DNA from: Candidatus Tityobacter terrigena
GTDB lineage: Bacteria > Vulcanimicrobiota > Vulcanimicrobiia > Vulcanimicrobiales > Vulcanimicrobiaceae
DNA: 64,000 nt
Assembly: GCA_003156715.1 (NCBI GenBank)
Contig: PMHO01000006.1
Location: forward strand, 91,218 to 155,217
Direction of reading: 5' to 3'
Shown here: positions 4,808-56,861 of the stretch, in pieces
Numbering within the stretch: position 1 is the stretch's first letter
How the letters are laid out: every line of letters begins with the position of its first letter
Made by a program: the position numbers and the translations under genes
Notes under the pieces: generated by a model
What the model saw: only the letters and a program-made list of their open reading frames with translations
Database searches by the model: none
Told to the model about the DNA's origin: nothing

Positions 4808-5410
4808 CTAGTGCCATTGGCGGGGGGAGGGTCGGGTCCTTCGCAAACGCGCGCGGAACGCGCCGTCCCAGTAGACGCCGTCGCCGCGAAACAGGCGCCG
4901 GCGCAGAAGCGGCGCTTCGCTTCGAGTCGTCGTGACGGCGAAGACGGTCTTTGAGGTGGGCTGTGCGTAGTCGCCGCTCACCGGCAAGCCTGGCGCCACA
5001 TGGAGCGGAACCGTCGCCCAAACGTCGACCTCCTCGAGCGGTTGCGCGGCGAAGCTCCGCCCAACGAGCGCGACGACCTCGTCGTCAAAGCCGCGTTCGT
5101 CAAGCCGGCCGTGAAACTTCACCGCTGAAAGAACCAGGGCGGCGACGAGGTGCGACCCGATTCCGTCGACCCGTACGCGCACGATCTGCGCCGGCCATAT
5201 CGTTGCGAGCAGCCTCTTGCCCAAGCCGATCGCCACGTCCTTACGGTTACCCGCGGCCCGCGCCGCAGCATCGACCTGGGCGATCGAAGGACGCCCCTCG
5301 GCGGCGCAAAGCGGGGCGGCTAGGAACGCGCACGAGCCGAGCAGCGCACAAAAGCCGGTCAGCGCGGCGAACCCGCGCCCGCTTGGCCCCGTGCGGCCGG
5401 CGTGCCTAAT
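4808..5410 (-). CDS. Exported protein of unknown function, start unresolved
   Basis: An open frame of about 200 codons directly behind proS. The N-terminus reads as a signal peptide (hydrophobic run ALTGFCALLGSCAFLAAPLC, then Ala-Ala), followed by a domain of about 150 residues that I do not recognise and an Arg-rich tail. No ATG, GTG or TTG lies between the proS stop and the signal peptide. Candidate initiators are ATT at 5410, which overlaps the proS TAG, or CTG at 5362. The longest conventional ORF begins inside proS at 5542 and would bury the signal peptide. It sits 34 nt upstream of the M16 peptidase gene. The coding assignment rests on the signal peptide and frame length only. Confidence 0.45.
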   Translation of the reverse strand: MRHAGRTGPSGRGFAALTGFCALLGSCAFLAAPLCAAEGRPSIAQVDAAARAAGNRKDVAIGLGKRLLATIWPAQIVRVRVDGIGSHLVAALVLSAVKFHGRLDERGFDDEVVALVGRSFAAQPLEEVDVWATVPLHVAPGLPVSGDYAQPTSKTVFAVTTTRSEAPLLRRRLFRGDGVYWDGAFRARLRRTRPSPRQWH

Positions 5411-6890
5411 AGCTTTGAGCGAAGTAGGCGCGCACCGTCGCCGGCTCCCCGCAGGCCAGACACGTTGCGGCGCCGTCGAGCGGGCGAAGGTTTCGTGTCG
5501 TCGCGCTCGTCTCGACTTTGACGAACGCCTCGCACTGCGCACGACCGCACCACGGGATGTCGATCATCCCGGCACGCTCGCGCAGCAAGTGGAAGAACTC
5601 GGCCGTGTCGCCGGCCGCAATCGTGTGGGTGCGCAAGAATTCGCTTGCCTGCGCGAACATATTCGTCTGGATCTCCTCGAGCAGCGCCGTCATTCGGCTG
5701 GCGACATCGGCGAGGGCGACCGTCACCTTGCCGCCCGCCTCACCCTTGGCCTTATCGCGGCGTACCAGCGTCGCGACGCCGGCGGCGATGTCGTTCGCTC
5801 CCAGCTCGACGCGGATCGGGACGCCGCGCATCTCCCAATCGGCAAACTTGTTGCCGGGGCGCAGGTCGCGCTCGTCGAGGCGCACCCGCAAGCCGCTGCC
5901 TTTGAGCTGCGCGAGCAGATCCCGCGCAGCGTGTATGACTCGGTCGTCGCCGGCCTTGACGATCGGCACGACGACCGCTTCGATCGGGGCCATCTTCGGC
6001 GGCATGCGCAAACCGCGGTCGTCGCCATGGACCATGATCAAGGCGCCGAGCATCCGCCACGACATGCCCCACGAGGTCGTCCAGACGTACTGCAGTGACT
6101 GGTCTTCGGCGGCAAACTTGATATCGTAGGCGCGCGCGAAGTTTTGCCCGAGCTCGTGGGACGTCCCGGACTGAAGGGCGCGCCCGTCGGGCATCAGCGC
6201 TTCGATCGAAAACGTATGCGTGGCCCCGGCGAAGCGTTCGCTCGAGCTCTTCTCGCCCGTGTAGACGGGCACCGCTGCGATGTCTTGCGCCACCTCGCGG
6301 TAGATGTCGAGCATGCGCACAACCTCCTCGCGGGCTTCTGGCTCGCTCGCATGTGCCGTGTGACCTTCCTGCCAGAGAAATTCAGTCGTGCGCAAGAAAG
6401 GACGCGTGCGCTTCTCCCAACGCACGACGTTGACCCACTGATTGATCAGGATCGGCAGATCGCGGTAGGAGCGTATCCAGTCCGCGTACATCGGGCCGAT
6501 GATGACTTCCGATGTCGGCCGTATGGCGAGACGCTCGCTGAGCCGTTCGTTGCCGCCGTGGGTAACCCACGCCACCTCCGGCGAGAACCCTTCAACGTGC
6601 TCTTGCTCTTTGAGCAGGAGATGCTCCGGGATCAACAGCGGAAAGTATGCGTTCTCGTGACCGGTGGCTTTGAAGCGCTCGTCCAGCGCTGCGACGAGCC
6701 GCTCCCACAGGGCAAAGCCGTATGGGCGCAGCACGACACAGCCGCGAACCGGAGCGAGCGAAACAAGCTCAGCCTTGTAGCAAACAGCCTGATACCACTC
6801 CGAAAGATCCGCGCCCTTGGGCGGGATCTCTTTGACGAGCGGCGTTTTCGGCTGGGCCACGCCCTCGTCCACTGTGTTCGGCTCTGACAT
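5406..6890 (-). CDS. proS: Prolyl-tRNA synthetase, short (ProS type 3, archaeal/eukaryotic-like) form
   Basis: Charges tRNA-Pro with proline. 494 residues from the ATG at 6890, which has AGGG at suitable distance; an alternative start at 6926 would overlap the start codon of the divergent gene. Class II motif 2 is visible as TRPFLRTTEFLWQEGHTAH, and motif 3 surrounds GMSWRMLGALIMVHGDDRG. There is no editing insertion between motifs 2 and 3, and the C-terminus carries a Cys-rich zinc-binding domain (CGRAQC, then CLAC). That architecture is the ProS type 3 form rather than the long bacterial type. It shares a very short divergent region with the cobalamin adenosyltransferase gene. Confidence 0.95.
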   Translation of the reverse strand: MSEPNTVDEGVAQPKTPLVKEIPPKGADLSEWYQAVCYKAELVSLAPVRGCVVLRPYGFALWERLVAALDERFKATGHENAYFPLLIPEHLLLKEQEHVEGFSPEVAWVTHGGNERLSERLAIRPTSEVIIGPMYADWIRSYRDLPILINQWVNVVRWEKRTRPFLRTTEFLWQEGHTAHASEPEAREEVVRMLDIYREVAQDIAAVPVYTGEKSSSERFAGATHTFSIEALMPDGRALQSGTSHELGQNFARAYDIKFAAEDQSLQYVWTTSWGMSWRMLGALIMVHGDDRGLRMPPKMAPIEAVVVPIVKAGDDRVIHAARDLLAQLKGSGLRVRLDERDLRPGNKFADWEMRGVPIRVELGANDIAAGVATLVRRDKAKGEAGGKVTVALADVASRMTALLEEIQTNMFAQASEFLRTHTIAAGDTAEFFHLLRERAGMIDIPWCGRAQCEAFVKVETSATTRNLRPLDGAATCLACGEPATVRAYFAQSY

Positions 6891-6924
6891 GAGCGCCCTA
6901 GGTTCGCACCGAAGGCAGCGTTTC

Positions 6925-7569
6925 ATGCCGAAGCTGACGCGAATCTACACACGTACCGGCGATGACGGCACGACCGGCCTGGTCGGCGGCCAGCGCATCA
7001 AGAAAGACTCGCTCCGCCTCGAAACGTACGGCACGATCGACGAGCTTTCGAGTTCGATCGGCGTGGCGCGCACCGCGCTCGCCGATATTTCTCGCAATGC
7101 TTGCGACCCCGCGGCGAACAAACGCATCGACGAGCTCGACCGGTGGCTAGCGTGGACGCAGGACATGCTCTTCAACCTCGGCAGCGAGCTCGCGACGCTG
7201 CCCGAGGACCGGCGCACGCAAGGTGCGTTCGACGGTGCGAGCGCGGCCCGCGCGCTCGAGCGCGCGATCGATCGCGCGCAAGCCGACTTGCCGCCGCTAG
7301 CCAACTTCATCCATCCGGGCGGATCGTACCCGGGTGCATTCCTGCACGTAGCGCGGACCGTCTGCCGTCGCGCCGAGCGGCTGTTGGTCAAGCTTGGTTC
7401 GGAAGAACGAAACCCGAGCGAGCCGGAGCGTTACGTGAACCGCCTTTCCGACGCACTGTTCGTTTGGTCGCGTTGGATCAATCACACGCTTCATCGTCCC
7501 GAGCACCTTTGGAATCCGAGCGCCGCGCCGCCGCCGGAAGGCAGCGAAGAAATACGCGGACCGGCGTAG
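6925..7569 (+). CDS. Cob(I)yrinic acid a,c-diamide adenosyltransferase, PduO type
   Basis: Transfers adenosyl from ATP to cob(I)alamin to make the B12 coenzyme. 214 residues. The N-terminal ATP-binding motif TRTGDDGTTGLVGG and the later RTVCRRAERLLVKL helix are hallmarks of the PduO/EutT-like family (PF01923). The ATG at 6925 has GAAGG upstream. No other B12 synthesis gene lies nearby, so the partner enzyme cannot be read from context. Confidence 0.92.
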   Translation: MPKLTRIYTRTGDDGTTGLVGGQRIKKDSLRLETYGTIDELSSSIGVARTALADISRNACDPAANKRIDELDRWLAWTQDMLFNLGSELATLPEDRRTQGAFDGASAARALERAIDRAQADLPPLANFIHPGGSYPGAFLHVARTVCRRAERLLVKLGSEERNPSEPERYVNRLSDALFVWSRWINHTLHRPEHLWNPSAAPPPEGSEEIRGPA

Positions 7570-7604
7570 GGCCGGCCCCGGGCTTGCGCTAAGACGCATC
7601 GCCG

Positions 7605-9125
7605 ATGGCAAACGCTAGCGCACCGCCGCCTTTCGGTGGTGATTCCAGTTTCGTCGGGCGCCTCTTTGCAAAGACCTCGATCGACGCCATGCGCGACGAT
7701 AAGAGGCCTTCCCAGTTGCGCCGGGCGCTACGCGCGCGGGACCTGATCGCGGTCGGACTCGGTACGATGATCGGCGGCGGCATCTTCACGACGATCGGAC
7801 CGGGCGTCAAGCTCGCAGGGCCGGCGATCATCTTGGCCTTCGTCGTTGCCGGCCTGGCGTCGTTCTTCGCGGCCCTCTGCTATGCCGAACTCGGGGCGAT
7901 GGTGCCCATCGCCGGGAGCGCCTACACCTACGCGTACGCAACGCTGGGACAGCTGGTCGCCTGGATCATCGGCTTCGCGTTGCTCTTCGAATACGGCATC
8001 AGCGCTGCGCCGGTCGCACAGCAGTTCTCGTCGACGTTCCAAAGTGCGCTCAACGCCTTCGGCGTCACGGTGCCGTTCGCGATTCGAACGTCGCACTTCA
8101 TCTTCGATCAAAACGCGTGGTGGGACATCACCAAGTGGGACATCGTGCATTCGCAGTACGACCTGATCGGCGCGGCCTTCGTGCTGCTGCTTTCCGTCCT
8201 TCTGGTGCTCGGCATCCGCGAGACCGCGACCGCCAACAACATCTTCGTCGTCTTGAAGATATCGGCGCTGGTCGTTTTCGTCTTCTTCGGCCTCTCGCTC
8301 TTCCACGCCGGCAACCTCGTCCCGTTCGCGCCGCTAGGGTGGGGATCGCTTCGGCCATTCAGCGGCGGAGAGGGGGCCGGCATCATCCCCGCCGCCGCGC
8401 TCGTCTTCTTCGCCTACATCGGCTTCGATACCGCGACGACGACCGCGGAGGAGTGCCGCAACCCGCAGCGCGACATTCCGCTAGGCGTCATAGGGGCGCT
8501 GGCCATCGGGACCGTAATCTACTGCACGGTCGCGGTCGTGCTGGTCGGCGTCGTGCCGTGGCGCCAGGTCGATGAGAATACCGCGCTCGCAAGCGCCCTT
8601 CGCCCGCTGCACAGCCCCTTCATCGACTGGACGATCACGATGGGCGTGCTGGCGGGCACGACGAGCGTCGCGCTCAGTTCGCTGCTCGGGCAGACGCGCA
8701 TCTTTTACGTGATGTCGCGCGACCGCATGCTGCCGCCGTTCGTCTCTCGGATCAATCCGCGCTTCAAGACGCCGGCCCTCATGACGATGATCACCGGCGT
8801 CGGCGTAGCGCTCCTAACCCTCATCGTGCCGCTCGACAACCTGCTGCGGCTGGTCAACATCGGGACGCTGGCGGCATTCATCGTGGTATGCGCGGGCGTG
8901 ATCTGGCTGCGCCACAAGCGGCCCGACATTCCGCGCCCATTCCGCTCGCCGTTCGTACCATGGTTCCCGCTGACCGGCATCCTCCTGTCGCTGATCCTGG
9001 TCGTCTTCGGACTGAGCACGGCGACGCTCGAGTGGTTCCTCGGCTCGCTCTCCGTCGGCCTCGTCATCTACTTCGCCTACGGCTTCCGCAAGTCGGATCC
9101 GTCAGCGCTCGCGCGCGGCGAGTAG
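7605..9125 (+). CDS. APC-family amino acid permease
   Basis: A 506-residue inner-membrane transporter with about 12 hydrophobic helices. The APC signature GLGTMIGGGIFTTIGP starts near residue 48, followed by the conserved CYAELGAMVPIAGSAYTYAY and, mid-protein, FFAYIGFDTATTTAEE. This matches the YfnA/CAT-like branch of amino acid:cation symporters. About 45 hydrophilic residues precede the first helix; an internal ATG at 7689 would give a more usual N-terminus. Substrate not predictable. Confidence 0.92.
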   Translation: MANASAPPPFGGDSSFVGRLFAKTSIDAMRDDKRPSQLRRALRARDLIAVGLGTMIGGGIFTTIGPGVKLAGPAIILAFVVAGLASFFAALCYAELGAMVPIAGSAYTYAYATLGQLVAWIIGFALLFEYGISAAPVAQQFSSTFQSALNAFGVTVPFAIRTSHFIFDQNAWWDITKWDIVHSQYDLIGAAFVLLLSVLLVLGIRETATANNIFVVLKISALVVFVFFGLSLFHAGNLVPFAPLGWGSLRPFSGGEGAGIIPAAALVFFAYIGFDTATTTAEECRNPQRDIPLGVIGALAIGTVIYCTVAVVLVGVVPWRQVDENTALASALRPLHSPFIDWTITMGVLAGTTSVALSSLLGQTRIFYVMSRDRMLPPFVSRINPRFKTPALMTMITGVGVALLTLIVPLDNLLRLVNIGTLAAFIVVCAGVIWLRHKRPDIPRPFRSPFVPWFPLTGILLSLILVVFGLSTATLEWFLGSLSVGLVIYFAYGFRKSDPSALARGE

Positions 9126-9161
9126 GCGGCACGACCTGCTTGCAAGAAGACCGGCAGCACG

Positions 9162-9458
9162 ATGACGTTCGAAGAGTTTCTCCCGGATTACCTCGCCGCG
9201 CACTCCAATCCCAACACGCGCATCGCGCACGCGGCGGGCACGCTGACGGGGCTCGGCATCGCAGCCTACGGGCTCCTCAAGCGCAAGCCGAAGCTGCTGC
9301 TGGTCGCGCTAGCCGCAGGCTACGTCCCCGCTTGGCTCTCGCACTGGGTGATCGAGGGCAATCAACCCAAGACGTTCGGCTACCCGCTCTACTCCTTGCG
9401 CGGCGACTTCGTCATGCTCGGCCGAACGTTGCGCGGCCAGCTCTCGAACACCGGGTAG
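9162..9458 (+). CDS. Mpo1-like (DUF962) membrane protein
   Basis: 98 residues with two hydrophobic segments. The pattern of the DUF962/Mpo1 family is clear: Tyr and His near the start (YLAAHSNPNTRIAHAAGT), a central PAWLSHWVIEGNQPKTFGYP and a final SLRGDFVMLGR. Yeast Mpo1 is an Fe-dependent dioxygenase acting on 2-hydroxy fatty acids, with those histidines as metal ligands. Function in bacteria is not established. The gene follows the permease closely and converges on the TonB receptor. Confidence 0.82.
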   Translation: MTFEEFLPDYLAAHSNPNTRIAHAAGTLTGLGIAAYGLLKRKPKLLLVALAAGYVPAWLSHWVIEGNQPKTFGYPLYSLRGDFVMLGRTLRGQLSNTG

Positions 9459-9466
9459 AGGCCCCA

Positions 9467-11632
9467 TTAGCTGCGGAACGTTAGGATCGAGCGGAATCCG
9501 GCCGGCTCGACGTGCAGGGCATCGGTCGGGAGCGGTCCGAAAATCGGGCTTCCCGAAGCGTTCTGCCCGACGATTCCGCGGTACGGTTCGCCCGCCCCGA
9601 AAACCGTGAAGCGCCCGGCGCCGGCGTTAAAGAGGTTGGTCGCAGCGAGCGACAAGTCGAGGCGCCGGCCGAAGCGGTAGCCGGCGAGCGCGCTCAACAC
9701 GGTGAACGGCCCCAGGTTCAACTCGTTGTTCTTCCCGCGAAAAACGGCACTGGCGTCGGCGTGCCAGGCCCCCTCGGCCCAGTCGACTTGGAGCGAGCCC
9801 TGCTGCTGCGGAATGCCGAGAAACTGCTCGTCGTCGACCAGATTGCCGCCCGACGTCGGGTTGGAAAACTGCGCGTCGAGATCCTTGGGATAGGCGACGT
9901 TGAGGCCATACCGGGCGGTCAGAAAAACGTGCTGCGCGGGGAAGCGGTGAACGAAGCGCGCTTCGAGACCTTGGTACACGGCATTACCGACGTTGCTGTT
10001 ATACGAAACGCAGGCTGGGATCGGGTTCGCATACGAATTGTTCGTACACGTTCCGTTCGCTACGGCCGCTAGCGGATAGAAGATTTCGATCGGGTTACGA
10101 AGGTTCGTCTGATAGAACGAAAGATCGAGCGTCGATTGCGACGAGAATTGATGCGAGGCGCCAAGCTCGTACTCAGTCGCGTGCTCGGGGTGTTCGTTCG
10201 GATTGCCCTGGGTCACGAAAACGTTGCTCCCGTCGAGCGTCAGTTCGTCGTAGGGGTATAGGTAGCGTTCGGCGAGCAGCGGAGCGCGGAAACCCGTACC
10301 GATCGAAAAACGAACCGACGTGGCCGGATCGGTCTGATAAATCGCCCCGAAACGGCCGTCGAGATTTGCGCCGAAGCTCGTGTAATACGATTGAAAGAGG
10401 CCGGCGTCGAGTCGCAGCTTGGGAACCGGCTGGAACCCGCCTCGCAGGTACAACACGTCGATCGTTTGACCCAGCTGCGCCTGGGCTTGCGTCGGTGTAA
10501 GCGACGCATCGCTTTGAGAGGGCGGTCCGGCGAACTCGAGCGACTCGTAGCGGGTGTATCCCCCGACCGCGAACTGTGAGGTATCGAAGGTGCGCTGCCA
10601 GGTCAGGCCGCCGTTGTAGCGTTTGTCCTCGTGGTCGATGTCATAGGGCGATGCCGTTCCGCCGTTGACGGCGACGTCGTTGTCGCTGAGCGACAGATCG
10701 CTTGTCAGTTCGCCCGCACCCAGCGGCGTGCGGGCCCGAAGTTGATAGGCGCGAATGGTTTGGTCGAAAATCTGCGCGCCCGGCCCCGTCAGCTGCCCGT
10801 ATTGCGGCGTTCCGAGGTCGGCTGAGTTTTCGTCGATGCCGTTGATCGAACTGCTCTGATCGCGCTCGTCACCCAGGAGAAACACGCGCGCGGTGAGATC
10901 GGCGTTCTGAGAGAACGACCAGGTCAGCGTTCCGAGGCCCAGATGCGAGGCAATCCACGAACCAAGGGCGGTCGCACACGGCGCGCACGCCGGCTTGGTC
11001 GTCGAATACAGCGGAAGCGTCGAATTGACGTAGCCGGCTTCATTTTGATCGTCGAAAGCGCCCGCGTATCCGAGGCGCCCAACCGTCCCCGTTGCGTTCA
11101 ACCACGACTCGCTCCCTCCCAAGGAACCCTCCGAGAACGAAAGGCCGTAGTGCGGCTCCACGGTGGGTCGCAACGAAACGAAATCGATCGCGCCGCCGAA
11201 CGTATTGCTGCCGTTGGAATCCTCGGGCCCCAGACCCTCGGTCACGTCGATCGCCGAGAACGCCGCCGATGGGAGCCGGGAAAGATCGAGGTCGCCCGTA
11301 TTGCCATCGTTGAGCAGCTGCCCGTCAAGCGCTACGAGCGATTCCGACGGATCGGGCCCGCGAAGCGACACAACCGCGACCGCGCTCGCCGCGCCGCCGT
11401 CCGGACGCGTAAAGGTCGCGCTCGGAATCGTCTGGAGCCCCTGGATCGCTAGGTCCGCACCTAGCAGATCTAAATCCGGCCGCGTCAGGGTCACGCTCGG
11501 GATCGTGCCCTCGATAGGCACGAGGCGGCCGTCGACCGTTACCTCGCCGATCTGCCGCAGCTTGGGCGAATCGAGCGGTTCCAGCGCGACCTCCACCTTC
11601 GAATCGTGCTCCACGTCGGCTCCGATCGTCAC
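9467..11632 (-). CDS. TonB-dependent outer-membrane receptor with N-terminal carboxypeptidase-regulatory-like domain
   Basis: Gated outer-membrane import channel. The plug domain (about residues 35-160) includes SLRGPDPSESLVALDGQLLN; the rest is a beta-barrel with alternating strands. The given start is a GTG at 11632, the only conventional initiator in frame. However, the same frame runs on upstream to 11863 and encodes a hydrophobic signal-like segment (HPLVLVFCCIVSG) and a CarboxypepD_reg-like domain (GAPIAGAQAELRGG, DAYGNFALTVAPGKYRLVAS) that belong to the protein. So the true N-terminus is upstream and uses an unrecognised start, or the 5' end is frameshifted. Substrate unknown; no siderophore or B12 gene adjoins. 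Confidence 0.88.
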   Translation of the reverse strand: MTIGADVEHDSKVEVALEPLDSPKLRQIGEVTVDGRLVPIEGTIPSVTLTRPDLDLLGADLAIQGLQTIPSATFTRPDGGAASAVAVVSLRGPDPSESLVALDGQLLNDGNTGDLDLSRLPSAAFSAIDVTEGLGPEDSNGSNTFGGAIDFVSLRPTVEPHYGLSFSEGSLGGSESWLNATGTVGRLGYAGAFDDQNEAGYVNSTLPLYSTTKPACAPCATALGSWIASHLGLGTLTWSFSQNADLTARVFLLGDERDQSSSINGIDENSADLGTPQYGQLTGPGAQIFDQTIRAYQLRARTPLGAGELTSDLSLSDNDVAVNGGTASPYDIDHEDKRYNGGLTWQRTFDTSQFAVGGYTRYESLEFAGPPSQSDASLTPTQAQAQLGQTIDVLYLRGGFQPVPKLRLDAGLFQSYYTSFGANLDGRFGAIYQTDPATSVRFSIGTGFRAPLLAERYLYPYDELTLDGSNVFVTQGNPNEHPEHATEYELGASHQFSSQSTLDLSFYQTNLRNPIEIFYPLAAVANGTCTNNSYANPIPACVSYNSNVGNAVYQGLEARFVHRFPAQHVFLTARYGLNVAYPKDLDAQFSNPTSGGNLVDDEQFLGIPQQQGSLQVDWAEGAWHADASAVFRGKNNELNLGPFTVLSALAGYRFGRRLDLSLAATNLFNAGAGRFTVFGAGEPYRGIVGQNASGSPIFGPLPTDALHVEPAGFRSILTFRS

Positions 11633-51085: not shown

Positions 51086-51125
51086 ACAACCCCTTTGGCC
51101 CAGAGAACTCCGTTGCGAGGTGCAC

Positions 51126-53060
51126 GTGCGTCACTGGTTTGCGTCCAGTCTCGTTGTTTCAAGCGCCCTCTTCACGTGCTCGTGTGGCGGCTCTAGCGGC
51201 GGCCTCGCACCGGCTCGAGGAGCCGTCGCCGGCGGCGCGCATGCGGCGGCGCATTGGGCCCAAGACGTCGACCGGCCGTTGTCCGCCAACGTCATCGAGA
51301 ACGGCGGCTTCGAGACCGGCAGTTTGGCGCCGTGGACTCAGGTAGGAACCGGCAGAGGCGCAGCGGTCGTCACCTCGGCGAAGGCGCATAGCGGCACCTA
51401 TTCCGCCTTCATGGGCACGAAAAAGGCTCCGGAAGTCGACGGGTTGATCGGCATCCAACAGCAAGTGACGATTCCGAGTGGAACGAGCAGCCTGTCGGCC
51501 TACATCCAAGGGACCACCACCGACGAGATCAAGTATGCCGACCAAGAGGCTGATCTCGTCGACGGTTCGGGGAGTCTCGTCTTTCAATGCTTCAAGGTCT
51601 TGCTCAAGACGACGACTTGGACGCAAGAGTCGTGTGACGTGAGCGCATACGCAGGACAGACCCTCGACGTGCTATACGGGGTTCGGGGCAACGGGTATTC
51701 GAGCGCATACGTCGACATGTACGTCGACGACGTAACGCTCGGCGCCGGTTCGGCCACTCCAACCCCAGTGCCGAGCGCAACCCCGCATCCGACGCCGACC
51801 CCGGTCTCCACGCCGGCACCGACCCCGACGCCCGCCGGCGCGAGCCCGATACAGCACGTCGTGATCGTCCTTCAGGAAAATCGCACGTTGGAGAACGTCT
51901 TTCACGGCTACCCCGGCGCCCACACCGTTAACGCGGGCCTCGACCACAACGGCAACTCGGTGCCGCTCGTCCAGCGGAACTTCATGCAGTCATGGGATCC
52001 GTCGCATCACTACGCCGACTGGAACACGGAATACAATGGCGGCGGCATGAACGGATTCGATCTCGACGGGCTCGACTACGGGTCCGGCGCCCCGGCGGAT
52101 TTTGCCTACACCTACGCGGTGCAATCGCAGGTGCAGCCCTATTGGGACATGGCCTCGCAGGGCGTGCTCGCCGATAACTTCTTCGTCGATCACCGCTCCG
52201 AGAGTTTCCCGGGCCACCTCTATCCCATCGCCGGCGCTTCCGGTCCGATCACGCCGGCCCAGCCGGATTACTACGCCTCGGAAGACCCCTCCGATGGAAC
52301 CTGCGATCACCCCGGTACGGCGGCCGCCATCAACATCATCACCGGTGTCGAGGACGGCACGTTCACTTCGTGCTTCGACTTCCAGACGATGGCCGATCTC
52401 CTCGTCGCGCAAGGGAAGACGTGGCGCTACTATGTCGACGCCGCATCCAAAGACACGAGCTACGTTTCCGCGTATGCCACGATCAAGCACATCCGCAACT
52501 CGAAGTCGCAGTGGGCCAACGTCGTGACGCCGGCGACGCAGGTCTATGCTGACGCCGAAAACGGTACCCTGGCAAACGTCTCGTGGGTGATCGGAACCTT
52601 CGCCGACTCCGATCACTCCGGCCAGAACGTTCCGAGCACGAACGGTCCGGACTGGGTCGCCTCCGTCATGAATGCGATCGGCGAAAGCAAGTCGTGGGGC
52701 TCGACCGTCATTATCCTAACCTACGACGATTGGGGAGGCTGGTACGACGAGGTCGCGCCGCCGGCGCAGTTCAATGCGTTCGACCCGGGCTTCCGCGTCC
52801 CGTTCGTGGCGGTGTCGCCGTACGCGGTTCGCGGCTACGTTTCGCATAACGTGCACTATCTCGGCAGCATCCTCCACTACATCGAGTCGAATTTCGGGCT
52901 CGGCTCGCTCGGGACGGCCGACTCGACCTCGGATGCGCTCGACGATATCTTCAACTACTCGCAGACGCCGCTCCAGTACATCCCGATCAAGACCGCCGAG
53001 CAGCCGGCGTCGTTCTTCAACCGCCCGAGCGGCATTCCGAAGGGCATCGAGCGCGACTGA
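51126..53060 (+). CDS. Secreted phosphoesterase (phospholipase C/acid phosphatase AcpA family) with N-terminal carbohydrate-binding-like domain
   Basis: 644 residues from GTG 51126 (GAGG 5 nt upstream; GTG 51120 possible). Signal-like N-terminus with Cys residues (ALFTCSC) that does not fit the lipobox well. Residues about 55-205 resemble a beta-sandwich binding module (ENGGFETGSLAPWTQVG). A Thr-Pro-rich linker (about 210-240) leads to the catalytic domain: HVVIVLQENRTLENVFHGYP, DHRSESFPGHLYPIAG and ILTYDDWGGWYDEVAPP, the metal and nucleophile regions of the alkaline-phosphatase-like phosphoesterase family. Probably hydrolyses phosphate esters or phospholipids outside the cell. Confidence 0.9.
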   Translation: MRHWFASSLVVSSALFTCSCGGSSGGLAPARGAVAGGAHAAAHWAQDVDRPLSANVIENGGFETGSLAPWTQVGTGRGAAVVTSAKAHSGTYSAFMGTKKAPEVDGLIGIQQQVTIPSGTSSLSAYIQGTTTDEIKYADQEADLVDGSGSLVFQCFKVLLKTTTWTQESCDVSAYAGQTLDVLYGVRGNGYSSAYVDMYVDDVTLGAGSATPTPVPSATPHPTPTPVSTPAPTPTPAGASPIQHVVIVLQENRTLENVFHGYPGAHTVNAGLDHNGNSVPLVQRNFMQSWDPSHHYADWNTEYNGGGMNGFDLDGLDYGSGAPADFAYTYAVQSQVQPYWDMASQGVLADNFFVDHRSESFPGHLYPIAGASGPITPAQPDYYASEDPSDGTCDHPGTAAAINIITGVEDGTFTSCFDFQTMADLLVAQGKTWRYYVDAASKDTSYVSAYATIKHIRNSKSQWANVVTPATQVYADAENGTLANVSWVIGTFADSDHSGQNVPSTNGPDWVASVMNAIGESKSWGSTVIILTYDDWGGWYDEVAPPAQFNAFDPGFRVPFVAVSPYAVRGYVSHNVHYLGSILHYIESNFGLGSLGTADSTSDALDDIFNYSQTPLQYIPIKTAEQPASFFNRPSGIPKGIERD

Positions 53061-54033: not shown

Positions 54034-55203
54034 TTACTTGACGGCGCAGGTCCCGAGTTTCGCGTTCGTCGGCTTGGCGCCGGAAATCGGACCGAGTTTT
54101 ACGGCGGCGAGCGTGCTGCTGTCGGTCTGCGGGAACGGCCTGGTTCCCGCGGGATAGCAGCTCGATGCCAGCAAGAATGCGCTGACGTCGGCGTACTGTT
54201 TGGGCGTCAGCGATCCGGGATTCGAGAACGGCATGTTCTGGAATACGGTCACGCGCAGATCTTCGAGCGACCACTTGTTGCGTTTGGCCGTCGTGAGAAA
54301 CTCCGTACCTGCTACGGCCGGCCCGGCAGTTCCCTGCAGGTCGGCACCGTGGCACTGGAGGCAGGACTTCCTGTAGACGGCGCTGCCGGCGTGCGCCTGC
54401 GCCGCGGTGAACGGGGGCTCGGGCGCTGCGAGCGCGACCTCGCGCGTCCGCTGCATTCGCGAAGCGTGACCGCACGCTGTCGTCGCTGCGACCGCGCCGT
54501 GCGTATAGAGGACGACGTCGTCGGCGCGGACGACCACGCGACTGATACTGAGTTCATCGGGGATCGCGGCGGAGGCCGAGCGTCGCGGCAGCGCGACGTA
54601 GACCAAGCGCTGCGCCACGATTCCGTATGCGGGCGCCCGTGAAGGCAGCGCGCAGCCGGATACGCTCGTAGCCCCCCAGGGAACGCCGAGCGTCGTGTTA
54701 CCGAGCGCGCCGCTGATTCCACCGAGCACGCCGTCTTGCGCGGGCCGCCCGACGACGAGCGCGAGGTTCGCGAGCGCACGCGTCAGGTCGGCCTCGTACT
54801 CCTCCATCTCTTTTTGCCCGAGCGCGCTCTGGAGATTGTCGGCCGCAGCGAGTACGTTGGCTTTCGCTCCCTCGATGGCAGGCGTCCAGAGCGAAGAGCC
54901 CACTTTGTCGAGCATGATATCCAGATGACCGAGCGTCCCGACGCCGTCGCCGGGATCGCCGTAGGAGGCCGCATAGCCGTCGTCGCGTCGGCCGACGAGG
55001 GCGTTCATCGCCCGGTGAGCCGCACGCACGTAAGCTCCGTGCCCAACCGCGTAGCCGTCTTCGATGCGCACGATCTCTGCGACCGCCGCGCGCACGTCGG
55101 CGAGCGCGCCGATCGCGCCTGCGTGATCGTCGGGAGCTGCCTGTGCCCAAGGCGGCGACGCCAAGGCCAGGACGCATGCGAGCCACAGGACGATCGTGCG
55201 CAT
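54034..55203 (-). CDS. Periplasmic cytochrome c-domain protein
   Basis: 389 residues with signal peptide (IVLWLACVLALASPPWAQA). Residues about 25-265 form an Ala-rich domain that I do not recognise. A class I cytochrome c domain follows: heme-binding CLQCH near residue 285 and the axial Met in VFQNMPFSNPGSL. A C-terminal tail holds two more Cys. It starts 11 nt after the PQQ dehydrogenase gene, so it is probably the electron acceptor. Confidence 0.85.
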   Translation of the reverse strand: MRTIVLWLACVLALASPPWAQAAPDDHAGAIGALADVRAAVAEIVRIEDGYAVGHGAYVRAAHRAMNALVGRRDDGYAASYGDPGDGVGTLGHLDIMLDKVGSSLWTPAIEGAKANVLAAADNLQSALGQKEMEEYEADLTRALANLALVVGRPAQDGVLGGISGALGNTTLGVPWGATSVSGCALPSRAPAYGIVAQRLVYVALPRRSASAAIPDELSISRVVVRADDVVLYTHGAVAATTACGHASRMQRTREVALAAPEPPFTAAQAHAGSAVYRKSCLQCHGADLQGTAGPAVAGTEFLTTAKRNKWSLEDLRVTVFQNMPFSNPGSLTPKQYADVSAFLLASSCYPAGTRPFPQTDSSTLAAVKLGPISGAKPTNAKLGTCAVK

Positions 55204-55214
55204 CGAGCGTTCTC

Positions 55215-56861
55215 CTACGGTAGGGTGAAGGCCGTAATGGTCGCTTTGGTCGGGTGCGAGTACGTCCCCTCGAGGGTCGGTGCGCCAGCGGCGAAACGCG
55301 GATCGGCAAAGTTGATGCCGGCCGGTCCCGACGCTACGACGACGTACTGCTTCCCACCCAAACTATACGATCCCGGCGGTGCTTGAATCGTTTGGTTCGT
55401 CGGGTAATGCCAGAGCACGCTTCCGGTCTTCGCATCGTAGGCGGTAAAGTCGCCGTTGACGCCTCCCGTGAAAACGATGCCGGACGAAAGCGATAGGGCG
55501 CCGCCGATTTGCGGAAACGCGAGGTGCTTGCGCCACAGGAACTTACCGGTCCCGATGTCGACCGCGCTCATGTAGCCGGTGCTCGGACCCACAAGCTTCG
55601 GGAAGGCGCCGCCGAGATAGAACTGCCCGGAAACGTACGTGGCGGTTCCCGGCGAAGTCCACTGCCCGCACTGGTCGACGCTGGGAACGTAAAACGCATT
55701 GGTTTCCGGCATATAACTGCCGCCGTTGAACTCGACGCCGCCATTGGTGTTCGGGCATGCGATGTTCCCCGTTCGGCTCGGCTCGGTGTTCTGGCCCTTC
55801 TGCGTGCTGACCGGGAGGTGATAGACGAGTGCGCCCGTCCCCGCGTCGAGCACCCAGAAATTCCCGCCTTTGTCGCCGGCGGCAACAAGTTTGCGCGCCG
55901 TCCCGCCGACGGTGCCCGAGAAGAGAACCGGCGGCATCGCCGGATCCCAGTCGTGGGTATCGTGCGGGATGAATTGGTGATACCACTTCAGCTTCGGCGT
56001 CGCCCCGCTGATGTCGAGCGCCACCATCGAGTTGGTGTAGAGGTTCGTGCCTTTACGGATCGTTCCGAGGAAGTCGGGCTGCGGATTGCCCGCGTCCGCG
56101 TACAGCGTGTTCGTTGCCGGGTCGATGGCAACGCCGCTCCAGATCGCGCCGCCGCCGCGTTTCCAGGAGTCGCCGCTCCAGGAACCGTGCCCAGGCTGGC
56201 CGGGTCCGGGAATCGTTTCCCAATCCCAGATGCGCTTGCCGGTCGCGGCGCTGAAAGCGCTCAGGTAGCCGATGCCGCCCCAGTCGCCGTTCGAAGCACC
56301 GAGCAGGAGCATGTCCTTGTACGGCACCGGCTGCATCGTGTAAAACGTGTTGGTCGTATCGTGCGCTGCAACGACGCTCCAAAGGGTCTTGCCGGTGGCG
56401 GCGTCGAGCGCGATCAGATTGCCGTCGAGCGTGGCTTCGTATACCTTTCCGTCGCCGATCGCGACGCCGCGATTCGCGGAAAACGCAATGACATGCGGTT
56501 TGTAGGCGTGATGCCACTTCACTGCACCGGTCTTGGCGTCGAGCGCATAGACGTCGTTGTGCGACGACGTCACGTACATCGTGTCGTGCCAAACGATCGG
56601 AGAGGTTTCGAGCGGGCCGCGGGCGTCGACGTTGGTCGCCCACGCCTTCTTGAGCGTCGAGACGTTGGCCGTGGTGATATCGCTATGAGCAAGATAGCGG
56701 TTTCCGGTGTAACTTCTTGCCGGTAGTATCCAGTCGGCGGTGTCCGTATCCGCATTCAGGTACGAGTCGGTCGTCGGCCACGAGCTCTGCGCTCCCAGTC
56801 GCGAAACCGCGACCACAGACACGACAGCGATGACGGCGAAACCGATCACCTTTCGCAACAT
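55215..56861 (-). CDS. PQQ-dependent alcohol/methanol-type dehydrogenase
   Basis: 548 residues, periplasmic (signal VIGFAVIAVVSVVAVS). Eight-bladed propeller with tryptophan-docking repeats (DAKTGAVKWHH, DAATGKTLWSV, DIGTGKFLWRKH). Metal and catalytic region aligned by eye with MxaF/XoxF: Asn in AGNPQP, catalytic Asp in PHDTHDWD and a second Asp two residues later, the position that marks lanthanide-dependent enzymes. The metal-binding Glu seems replaced by Asp (SNGDWGGIG), and the vicinal Cys-Cys before NRGVAIGDG is absent. Partner cytochrome gene follows. Substrate not predictable. Confidence 0.88.
   Translation of the reverse strand: MLRKVIGFAVIAVVSVVAVSRLGAQSSWPTTDSYLNADTDTADWILPARSYTGNRYLAHSDITTANVSTLKKAWATNVDARGPLETSPIVWHDTMYVTSSHNDVYALDAKTGAVKWHHAYKPHVIAFSANRGVAIGDGKVYEATLDGNLIALDAATGKTLWSVVAAHDTTNTFYTMQPVPYKDMLLLGASNGDWGGIGYLSAFSAATGKRIWDWETIPGPGQPGHGSWSGDSWKRGGGAIWSGVAIDPATNTLYADAGNPQPDFLGTIRKGTNLYTNSMVALDISGATPKLKWYHQFIPHDTHDWDPAMPPVLFSGTVGGTARKLVAAGDKGGNFWVLDAGTGALVYHLPVSTQKGQNTEPSRTGNIACPNTNGGVEFNGGSYMPETNAFYVPSVDQCGQWTSPGTATYVSGQFYLGGAFPKLVGPSTGYMSAVDIGTGKFLWRKHLAFPQIGGALSLSSGIVFTGGVNGDFTAYDAKTGSVLWHYPTNQTIQAPPGSYSLGGKQYVVVASGPAGINFADPRFAAGAPTLEGTYSHPTKATITAFTLP

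Follow-up and report, generated by a model that had tools for sequence, protein, structure and literature searches.

A clade of PQQ-dependent dehydrogenases with an Asp-x-Asp motif, no vicinal cysteines and an adjacent or fused cytochrome c in Eremiobacterota and Acetobacterales

The window, the whole 64,000-nucleotide stretch of DNA analysed here, carries on its minus strand a gene (55215..56861) for a PQQ-dependent dehydrogenase of 548 amino acids, with an ATG start, an N-terminal segment that by eye resembles a signal peptide, and a propeller fold. Eleven nucleotides after its stop codon, on the same minus strand, begins the gene for a partner c-type cytochrome of 389 amino acids (54034..55203). 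The host, a soil-type bacterium, has an assembly of 3.95 Mb in 66 contigs, and the nearest relatives carrying named records are MAGs of the Eremiobacterota (WPS-2). With 242.5 bits against PF01011 (gathering cut-off 26.7), the protein belongs to the PQQ propeller superfamily. It falls below the cut-offs of narrower families: 349.7 bits against TIGR03075, the methanol/ethanol family (curated cut-off 480.05); 329 bits against its second NCBIfam match, TIGR04528, named acido-empty-quinoprotein group A (cut-off 650); and 159.6 bits against TIGR03074, the membrane glucose/quinate dehydrogenases (cut-off 832.65). Nei-Gojobori dN/dS values of 0.10–0.16 against four orthologues (dS 0.76–1.11) indicate purifying selection, so the gene is not decaying; pseudogene status or drift was thereby ruled out for the window dehydrogenase.

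An AlphaFold2 model built on a 56-row alignment (pLDDT 89.3, pTM 0.90) adopts the propeller fold, with Z-scores of 41.7–48.3 to the 27 top-ranked PQQ-dehydrogenase rows. Its top structural match was the lanthanide enzyme PedH (6zcw: Z 48.3, rmsd 2.0, 505 residues), and the next solved structures were ADH-IIG (1yiq, Z 47.4), 1kv9 (46.9), XoxF (6dam, 46.8) and ExaA (1flg, 46.0). Matches within 1 Z count as tied; PedH is thus tied with the quinohemoprotein ADH-IIG 1yiq, and the top fold match therefore gives lanthanide enzymes no preference. In the ten-residue block 121–130, the loop that has lost the disulfide, mean pLDDT is only 73.

Active-site residues were identified by alignment with PDB-derived references (MxaF, two XoxF, PedH, ExaA and a quinohemoprotein ADH), with alignment positions given in MxaF numbering and all codons on the minus strand. 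No vicinal cysteines are present: I125-A126-F127 (within 'HVIAFSANRG'; 56481..56489) occupy the places of MxaF C103-C104-D105, with Phe beside the lost pair. From I125 to R131 the window protein and MxaF align without gaps in two alignments; a MAFFT alignment with Acidobacteriota rows added has a gap at window residue 125 and a small loop shift, and still no Cys. The metal ligand E177 of MxaF (E172 of XoxF) is replaced by D193 ('SNGDWGG'; 56283..56285), and the ligand N261 (XoxF N256) is retained as N259 (56085..56087). Within H303-D304-W305-D306 ('THDWD'; 55944..55955), D304 corresponds to the catalytic Asp (MxaF D303, XoxF D299), D306 to the lanthanide-type Asp (XoxF D301, MxaF A305), and H303 replaces W302 before the catalytic Asp. 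Also retained are the PQQ residue R109, as R131 (56469..56471), W243, as W241 (56139..56141), which we take to be the PQQ floor residue, and E55, T159 and S174, as E85, T175 and S190. K331 (55869..55871) stands at MxaF R331, and G175, N394 and W476 of MxaF have become N191, E377 and I452.

These assignments agree with an earlier note on this DNA, which had pointed to an Asp at +2 from the catalytic Asp (HDWD), to the absence of a Cys-Cys pair near the PQQ site and to an apparent Glu-to-Asp change in a metal ligand. By alignment, both the second Asp and the Glu-to-Asp change fall at the metal/PQQ site, not outside it, and the combination, which the note had thought untypical of XoxF or ExaF, is absent from the XoxF, PedH, ExaA, MxaF and quinohemoprotein ADH references. 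D193 and D306 are placed on metal positions because the relevant passages of a review give Glu, Asn, Asp and Asp as the metal residues in the XoxF and PedH structures (PMC11845868). The same passages name Gly171 and Thr259 of XoxF as further lanthanide-type residues; the window protein has the counterpart of Gly171 (G192) and a Pro at the Thr259 position, where Pro also occurs in MxaF, ExaA and the lanthanide enzyme PedH.

Relatives were gathered from GTDB contigs, 149 genomes of the phylum, seven genomes behind the loci, and plasmids, with further scans of 299 genomes of Rhodopila's order, 289 of its class and 297 from the phylum to which a Solibacteraceae MAG belongs. The large scans scored at most four candidates per genome, and absences there are weak. 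Orthologues of the window dehydrogenase (subgroup A below) came from 12 of the 149 phylum genomes, from nine of the 299 in Rhodopila's order (Rhodopila included) and from five further Acetobacteraceae among the GTDB contigs. At the thresholds used and with at most four candidates per genome, the 289 genomes of Rhodopila's class yielded only Rhodopila itself, and the best matches in the 297 genomes around the Solibacteraceae MAG reached 37–41% identity. Among plasmids, 369 records matched, none with its best place at 60% identity or above (best-ranked, 38.7%).

The alignment had earlier excluded identical or contained copies, alignments shorter than 300 residues and matches not reaching 1e-30; this took out partial or distant copies from the host's own genome (L007, L009, L010, L011, L012) and a fragment (L070). 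L001 (the window again) and the partial rows L020, L023 and L024 were dropped before residues were counted; the careful tree left out these four and near-copies, 20 of 90 rows in all. Eleven Acidobacteriota rows came later and stand outside both counts and trees. In the careful tree, with 70 rows and the trait columns left out, 37 rows without the vicinal cysteines formed one group (bootstrap 100, SH-aLRT 99), apart from XoxF/MxaF, PedH/ExaA, the quinohemoprotein ADH and a cysteine-bearing, mainly Eremiobacterota group. The same group, with 45 rows (SH-aLRT 99), had emerged from a quick tree built earlier on 86 rows. The separate clade that the earlier note had suspected is thus recovered, and it is wider than the window protein, taking in a mostly cytochrome-fused subgroup and one with Gln55 that extends to Deinococcus. 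Subgroup A, the window orthologues, holds ten Eremiobacterota rows including the window and 13 Acetobacterales rows; subgroup B holds 12 rows from Eremiobacterota, of which 11 are about 670–750 amino acids long with CxxCH after the dehydrogenase; and subgroup C holds ten rows with Gln55, two Deinococcus plasmid proteins among them.

Some copies were incomplete or interrupted. In L024 (7482-9576, Rhodopila globiformis DSM 161) and in L061 the orthologue lies in two different frames and contains an internal stop, and the R. globiformis cytochrome gene beside the interrupted copy gives a match spanning residue 18 to the end. Within the host genome, the relatives L002 (contig C32) and partial L007 (start of C66) have no vicinal cysteines and carry Asp177, and a copy at the end of contig C25 (L009, L011) is truncated by the contig end and by a run of N, which leaves its cysteine region uncovered.

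None of the clade's 45 rows has the vicinal cysteines; D303, D305, N261, W243 and K331 occur in all of them, R109 and His302 (before the catalytic Asp) in 44 each, Asp177 in 43 (Glu in L046 and L074), and Phe or Tyr at 105, after the lost cysteines, in 40. The 37 cysteine-bearing rows have Glu177 throughout, Trp302 in 34 and Phe or Tyr at 105 in none, and D305 is found in 34, the exceptions being only MxaF, ExaA and the quinohemoprotein ADH. Positions 55, 103, 105, 109, 159, 177, 243, 261, 302, 303, 305, 331 and 394 are each invariant across the 23 subgroup-A rows, and positions 104, 174 and 476 vary. Chance or misalignment was ruled out, the key columns holding a single residue in 23/23 subgroup-A rows. 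The Gly directly before ligand 177, which passages in the literature tie to Ln coordination (PMC11845868), is kept in subgroups A and B.

Cysteine loss and the Glu177-to-Asp change are not strictly linked, since L046, L074 and six of the 11 Acidobacteriota rows (L114-L117, L120, L124) keep Glu177 without the cysteines; among the other Acidobacteriota rows, L121 and L122 combine cysteine absence with Asp177, and L118, L119 and L123 have both the cysteines and Glu177. His302 also occurs in three cysteine-bearing rows among these 11. Position 55 in L114-L117 is His or Gln, and these rows also show a CxxCH before the propeller match, possibly another cytochrome fusion. On the careful tree, the presence or absence of the cysteines needs three changes. 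Outside the clade the pair is also missing from E. coli Gcd, two Ketogulonicigenium proteins and one Rhodococcus protein, and a single clade for all 41 cysteine-less rows gave p-AU 0.105. A trait-correlation test had one informative pair on supported branches, with the second trait the same in both members. Cysteine loss and Asp177 coincide essentially once on the tree, and their link therefore does not amount to independent support.

In all 26 genomes where subgroup A was found (12 Eremiobacterota, 14 Acetobacterales), a cytochrome c gene homologous to the window's 54034..55203 follows the dehydrogenase on the same strand, the matched ends lying 6 to 317 nt apart; contig ends cut the cytochrome in G149 and the dehydrogenase in G034 and G120. 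The window cytochrome has a C-terminal haem domain (CLQCH at 281), and 23 aligned copies have CxxCH, Met324 and cysteines 184, 349 and 386 in common. Its N-terminal domain was modelled as helices with a small beta part, at middling confidence (pLDDT 75.8, pTM 0.57), and Foldseek returned no match for this middling-confidence model at E <= 0.001. In the sister subgroup B (L038-L045, L066-L069), 11 of 12 rows carry CxxCH after the propeller in the same ORF, an arrangement analogous to that of quinohemoproteins; a search for a separate cytochrome gave no match for L043, the twelfth row, nor for L069.

The host genome encodes PqqB (293.2 bits), PqqE (472.6) and PqqC (290.1), all over curated cut-offs and close together (L104, G000:C27:8000-25926, at 5079-8009). 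It also encodes a XoxF (L105, G000:C64:14000-30244, at 7993-10746) with the vicinal cysteines, the Glu and DYD, which scores 672.4 bits against TIGR03075, groups with XoxF 4mae in both trees, and adjoins a XoxJ-like protein (207.0 bits, just under the cut-off of 212.15); a small cytochrome c is encoded close by. Given PqqB, PqqC, PqqE, XoxF and the XoxJ-like protein in its own genome, PQQ is available to the host, and lanthanides probably are as well. PqqC was matched in four of the 12 Eremiobacterota genomes with an orthologue, three times over the cut-off, and over the cut-off in 13 of the 14 Acetobacterales genomes with subgroup A. The other eight orthologue-bearing Eremiobacterota (G126, G127, G128, G124, G033, G125, G034, G120) gave no PqqC match, and may be PQQ importers, incomplete assemblies or carriers of empty quinoproteins. 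PQQ uptake is the simplest reading and a likely one, because PqqC-less G128 (97% complete, 7 contigs) also has a PQQ dehydrogenase of the cysteine-bearing type (L080). Many Gram-negatives with PQQ enzymes take PQQ from outside, according to passages that do not mention Eremiobacterota (PMC12124388).

The window protein shares with XoxF (4mae, 6dam) the fold, the N261 and D-x-D metal residues, W243 and R109; unlike XoxF, it lacks the vicinal cysteines, carries Asp for Glu at 177, His for Trp at 302 and Lys for Arg at 331, falls in another tree group, and has as its neighbour, conserved in 26/26 genomes, a different kind of cytochrome gene. With PedH/ExaF (6zcw) it shares D-x-D and the highest, though tied, structural Z, whereas PedH has the cysteines and the metal-site Glu and sits in a separate tree group. 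Set against the features of XoxF and ExaF/PedH, then, the window protein has D-x-D and differs in the vicinal cysteines, the metal-ligand Glu and the tree placement. Gcd (TIGR03074) resembles it in lacking the cysteines and in having Lys331 and D-x-D, but the Gcd metal loop has no aligned Glu or Asp at 177 or Asn at 261, and Gcd lies on a very long branch where its place in the tree is unsure. Older literature has His262 taking the place of the disulfide in E. coli m-GDH, and a His of Gcd aligns with F127 of the window protein. The Solibacteraceae relative L026, which scores 515.9 bits against TIGR04528 (below the cut-off of 650), has the cysteines and Glu177, unlike the window protein. Marine thaumarchaeal quinoproteins, archaeal proteins that we liken to the window protein by their published description only, are described in part of one report as having DYD or D-x-D (nine variants) without the Cys-Cys motif (PMC7300363). 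D-x-D without vicinal cysteines is thus not unprecedented, being known from these proteins and from E. coli Gcd.

We favour, with some confidence, the view that the window gene encodes a PQQ-dependent dehydrogenase of the periplasm, acting on an alcohol or sugar, which belongs to a separate cysteine-less clade and passes its electrons to the adjacent cytochrome c. The residues, the clade, purifying selection and the conserved gene pair are what this view builds on. Once exported, the enzyme would hold PQQ between W241 as floor and the F127 ring as roof, the ring standing in the disulfide's place in the alignment, and E85, R131, T175, K331 and E377 would contribute further contacts; the proposed Phe roof comes from the alignment and lies in the lower-confidence loop of the model. 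D193, N259, D304 and D306 would hold the metal, probably a lanthanide, or else form a promiscuous site for Ln(III) or Ca/Mg. D304 would be the base that takes the substrate proton, and electrons from PQQH2 would pass to the dedicated cytochrome c, whose gene begins 11 nt downstream, and on to the respiratory chain, bypassing a disulfide that a dedicated or fused cytochrome would make dispensable. The active site would seem to suit a rare-earth metal, and lanthanide use by the window enzyme is plausible. The nearest folds (PedH, ADH-IIG, XoxF) support the favoured view, as do the PQQ and XoxF genes of the host and the Phe or Tyr at 105 that marks 40 of 45 clade rows and no cysteine-bearing row; we count against it that W476 and N394 of MxaF are not retained, that the TIGR03075 cut-off is missed, that D-x-D also occurs in Gcd, that PqqC is found in only four of the 12 Eremiobacterota and was not matched in G128, and that Pro stands at the XoxF Thr259 position. 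The shorter Asp at 177 could also weaken metal binding. A bolder version, which we hold to be doubtful, is that the clade represents a third lanthanide-quinoprotein design, with an Asp-Asn-Asp-x-Asp Ln site in place of Glu-Asn-Asp-x-Asp, an aromatic PQQ cap, and electrons passing straight to a cytochrome c that is co-inherited in subgroup A and fused in most of subgroup B. If this were true, the disulfide would not be needed for Ln-PQQ electron transfer, and the shorter Asp ligand might shift the range of lanthanides accepted.

The main alternative concerns the metal. We give somewhat less than an even chance to a metal-promiscuous or Ca/Mg enzyme, akin to the membrane glucose dehydrogenases, in which D-x-D is kept and the physiological metal is not a lanthanide; this overlaps with the promiscuous branch of the favoured view, and the likelihoods given here do not add up to one. 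The same combination of missing cysteines, Lys331 and D-x-D is seen in E. coli Gcd, and m-GDH can complex Ca, Mg, Zn and Sr, with facultative Ln use predicted in the passages concerned (PMC11996626). In the relevant part of PMC11845868, every Ln-enzyme structure with its ligands given carries Glu rather than Asp at 177. The Pro at the XoxF Thr259 position points the same way, but the lanthanide enzyme PedH has it too. Also weighing against a Ca/Mg enzyme are D305 in 45/45 clade rows, where among the 37 cysteine-bearing rows only MxaF, ExaA and the quinohemoprotein ADH do without it, the XoxF in the host's own genome, and the retention in subgroups A and B of the Gly tied to Ln coordination (PMC11845868).

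That the propeller no longer uses PQQ, as NCBI's name for TIGR04528 suggests for a related group, seems improbable to us. TIGR04528 is the second NCBIfam match, eight of the 12 orthologue-bearing Eremiobacterota have no PqqC match, and W476 and N394 of MxaF are replaced; however, the score is only 329 of the 650 bits of the cut-off, E55, R109, T159, W243 and K331 are kept in 23/23 subgroup-A rows under purifying selection, PqqC exceeds its cut-off in nearly all of the Acetobacterales genomes, and L080 in PqqC-less G128 makes PQQ uptake likely. We think it very unlikely that the protein is an ordinary divergent XoxF or ExaF/PedH paralogue whose changes reflect neutral drift: it shares their fold and superfamily, with PedH giving the highest structural Z, but it lies outside the XoxF/MxaF and PedH/ExaA groups in the trees, its distinctive residues are fixed across two phyla, and it belongs to a gene pair of its own.

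The clade bears on what the vicinal disulfide contributes to electron transfer in quinoproteins and on whether D-x-D alone predicts lanthanide use. It offers a natural comparison set that combines D-x-D with a missing disulfide and a changed metal ligand, subgroup A lying beside its own cytochrome gene in all 26 genomes. The earlier note had taken the Asp at +2 as the mark of lanthanide-dependent members; the residue is indeed present, but E. coli Gcd carries D-x-D without the cysteines too, so D-x-D alone is no marker of lanthanide dependence, which counsels caution in metagenome counts of lanthanide enzymes. PQQ-ADH clades were reportedly classified by Keltjens et al. in 2014 and by Huang et al. 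in 2019, and the cysteine-less Asp177 clade may be present in their trees. Among the literature matches listed, seen as titles and abstract beginnings and mostly from outside subscription journals, there was no description of the Glu-to-Asp change, of an Asp177 clade with the Phe/His signature or of the two-gene cytochrome unit. In the passages relevant here, the electron route of quinoproteins is called unclear, with considerable evidence for the disulfide (PMC8546591), and D-x-D, found in the m-GDH and sorbose-type groups, is assumed to indicate lanthanide binding (PMC11996626).

The dehydrogenase and cytochrome genes stay together while their wider flanks differ between genomes, which suggests a transferable two-gene unit. 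In the flanks inspected by eye, the cytochrome was the only neighbour conspicuously common to different phyla. L014 has an aldehyde dehydrogenase nearby and L023 a luciferase-like monooxygenase; an S15-type hydrolase adjoins L015, and a hydantoinase-like protein adjoins the G033 copy. A sugar-type ABC transporter and an SMP-30/gluconolactonase lie near the Rhodopila copy. A MarC-type gene lies beyond the pair in both L025 and the window, and positions 51120-53060 of the window encode a phosphoesterase-family protein (PF04185) with a carbohydrate-binding-module match barely over the cut-off.
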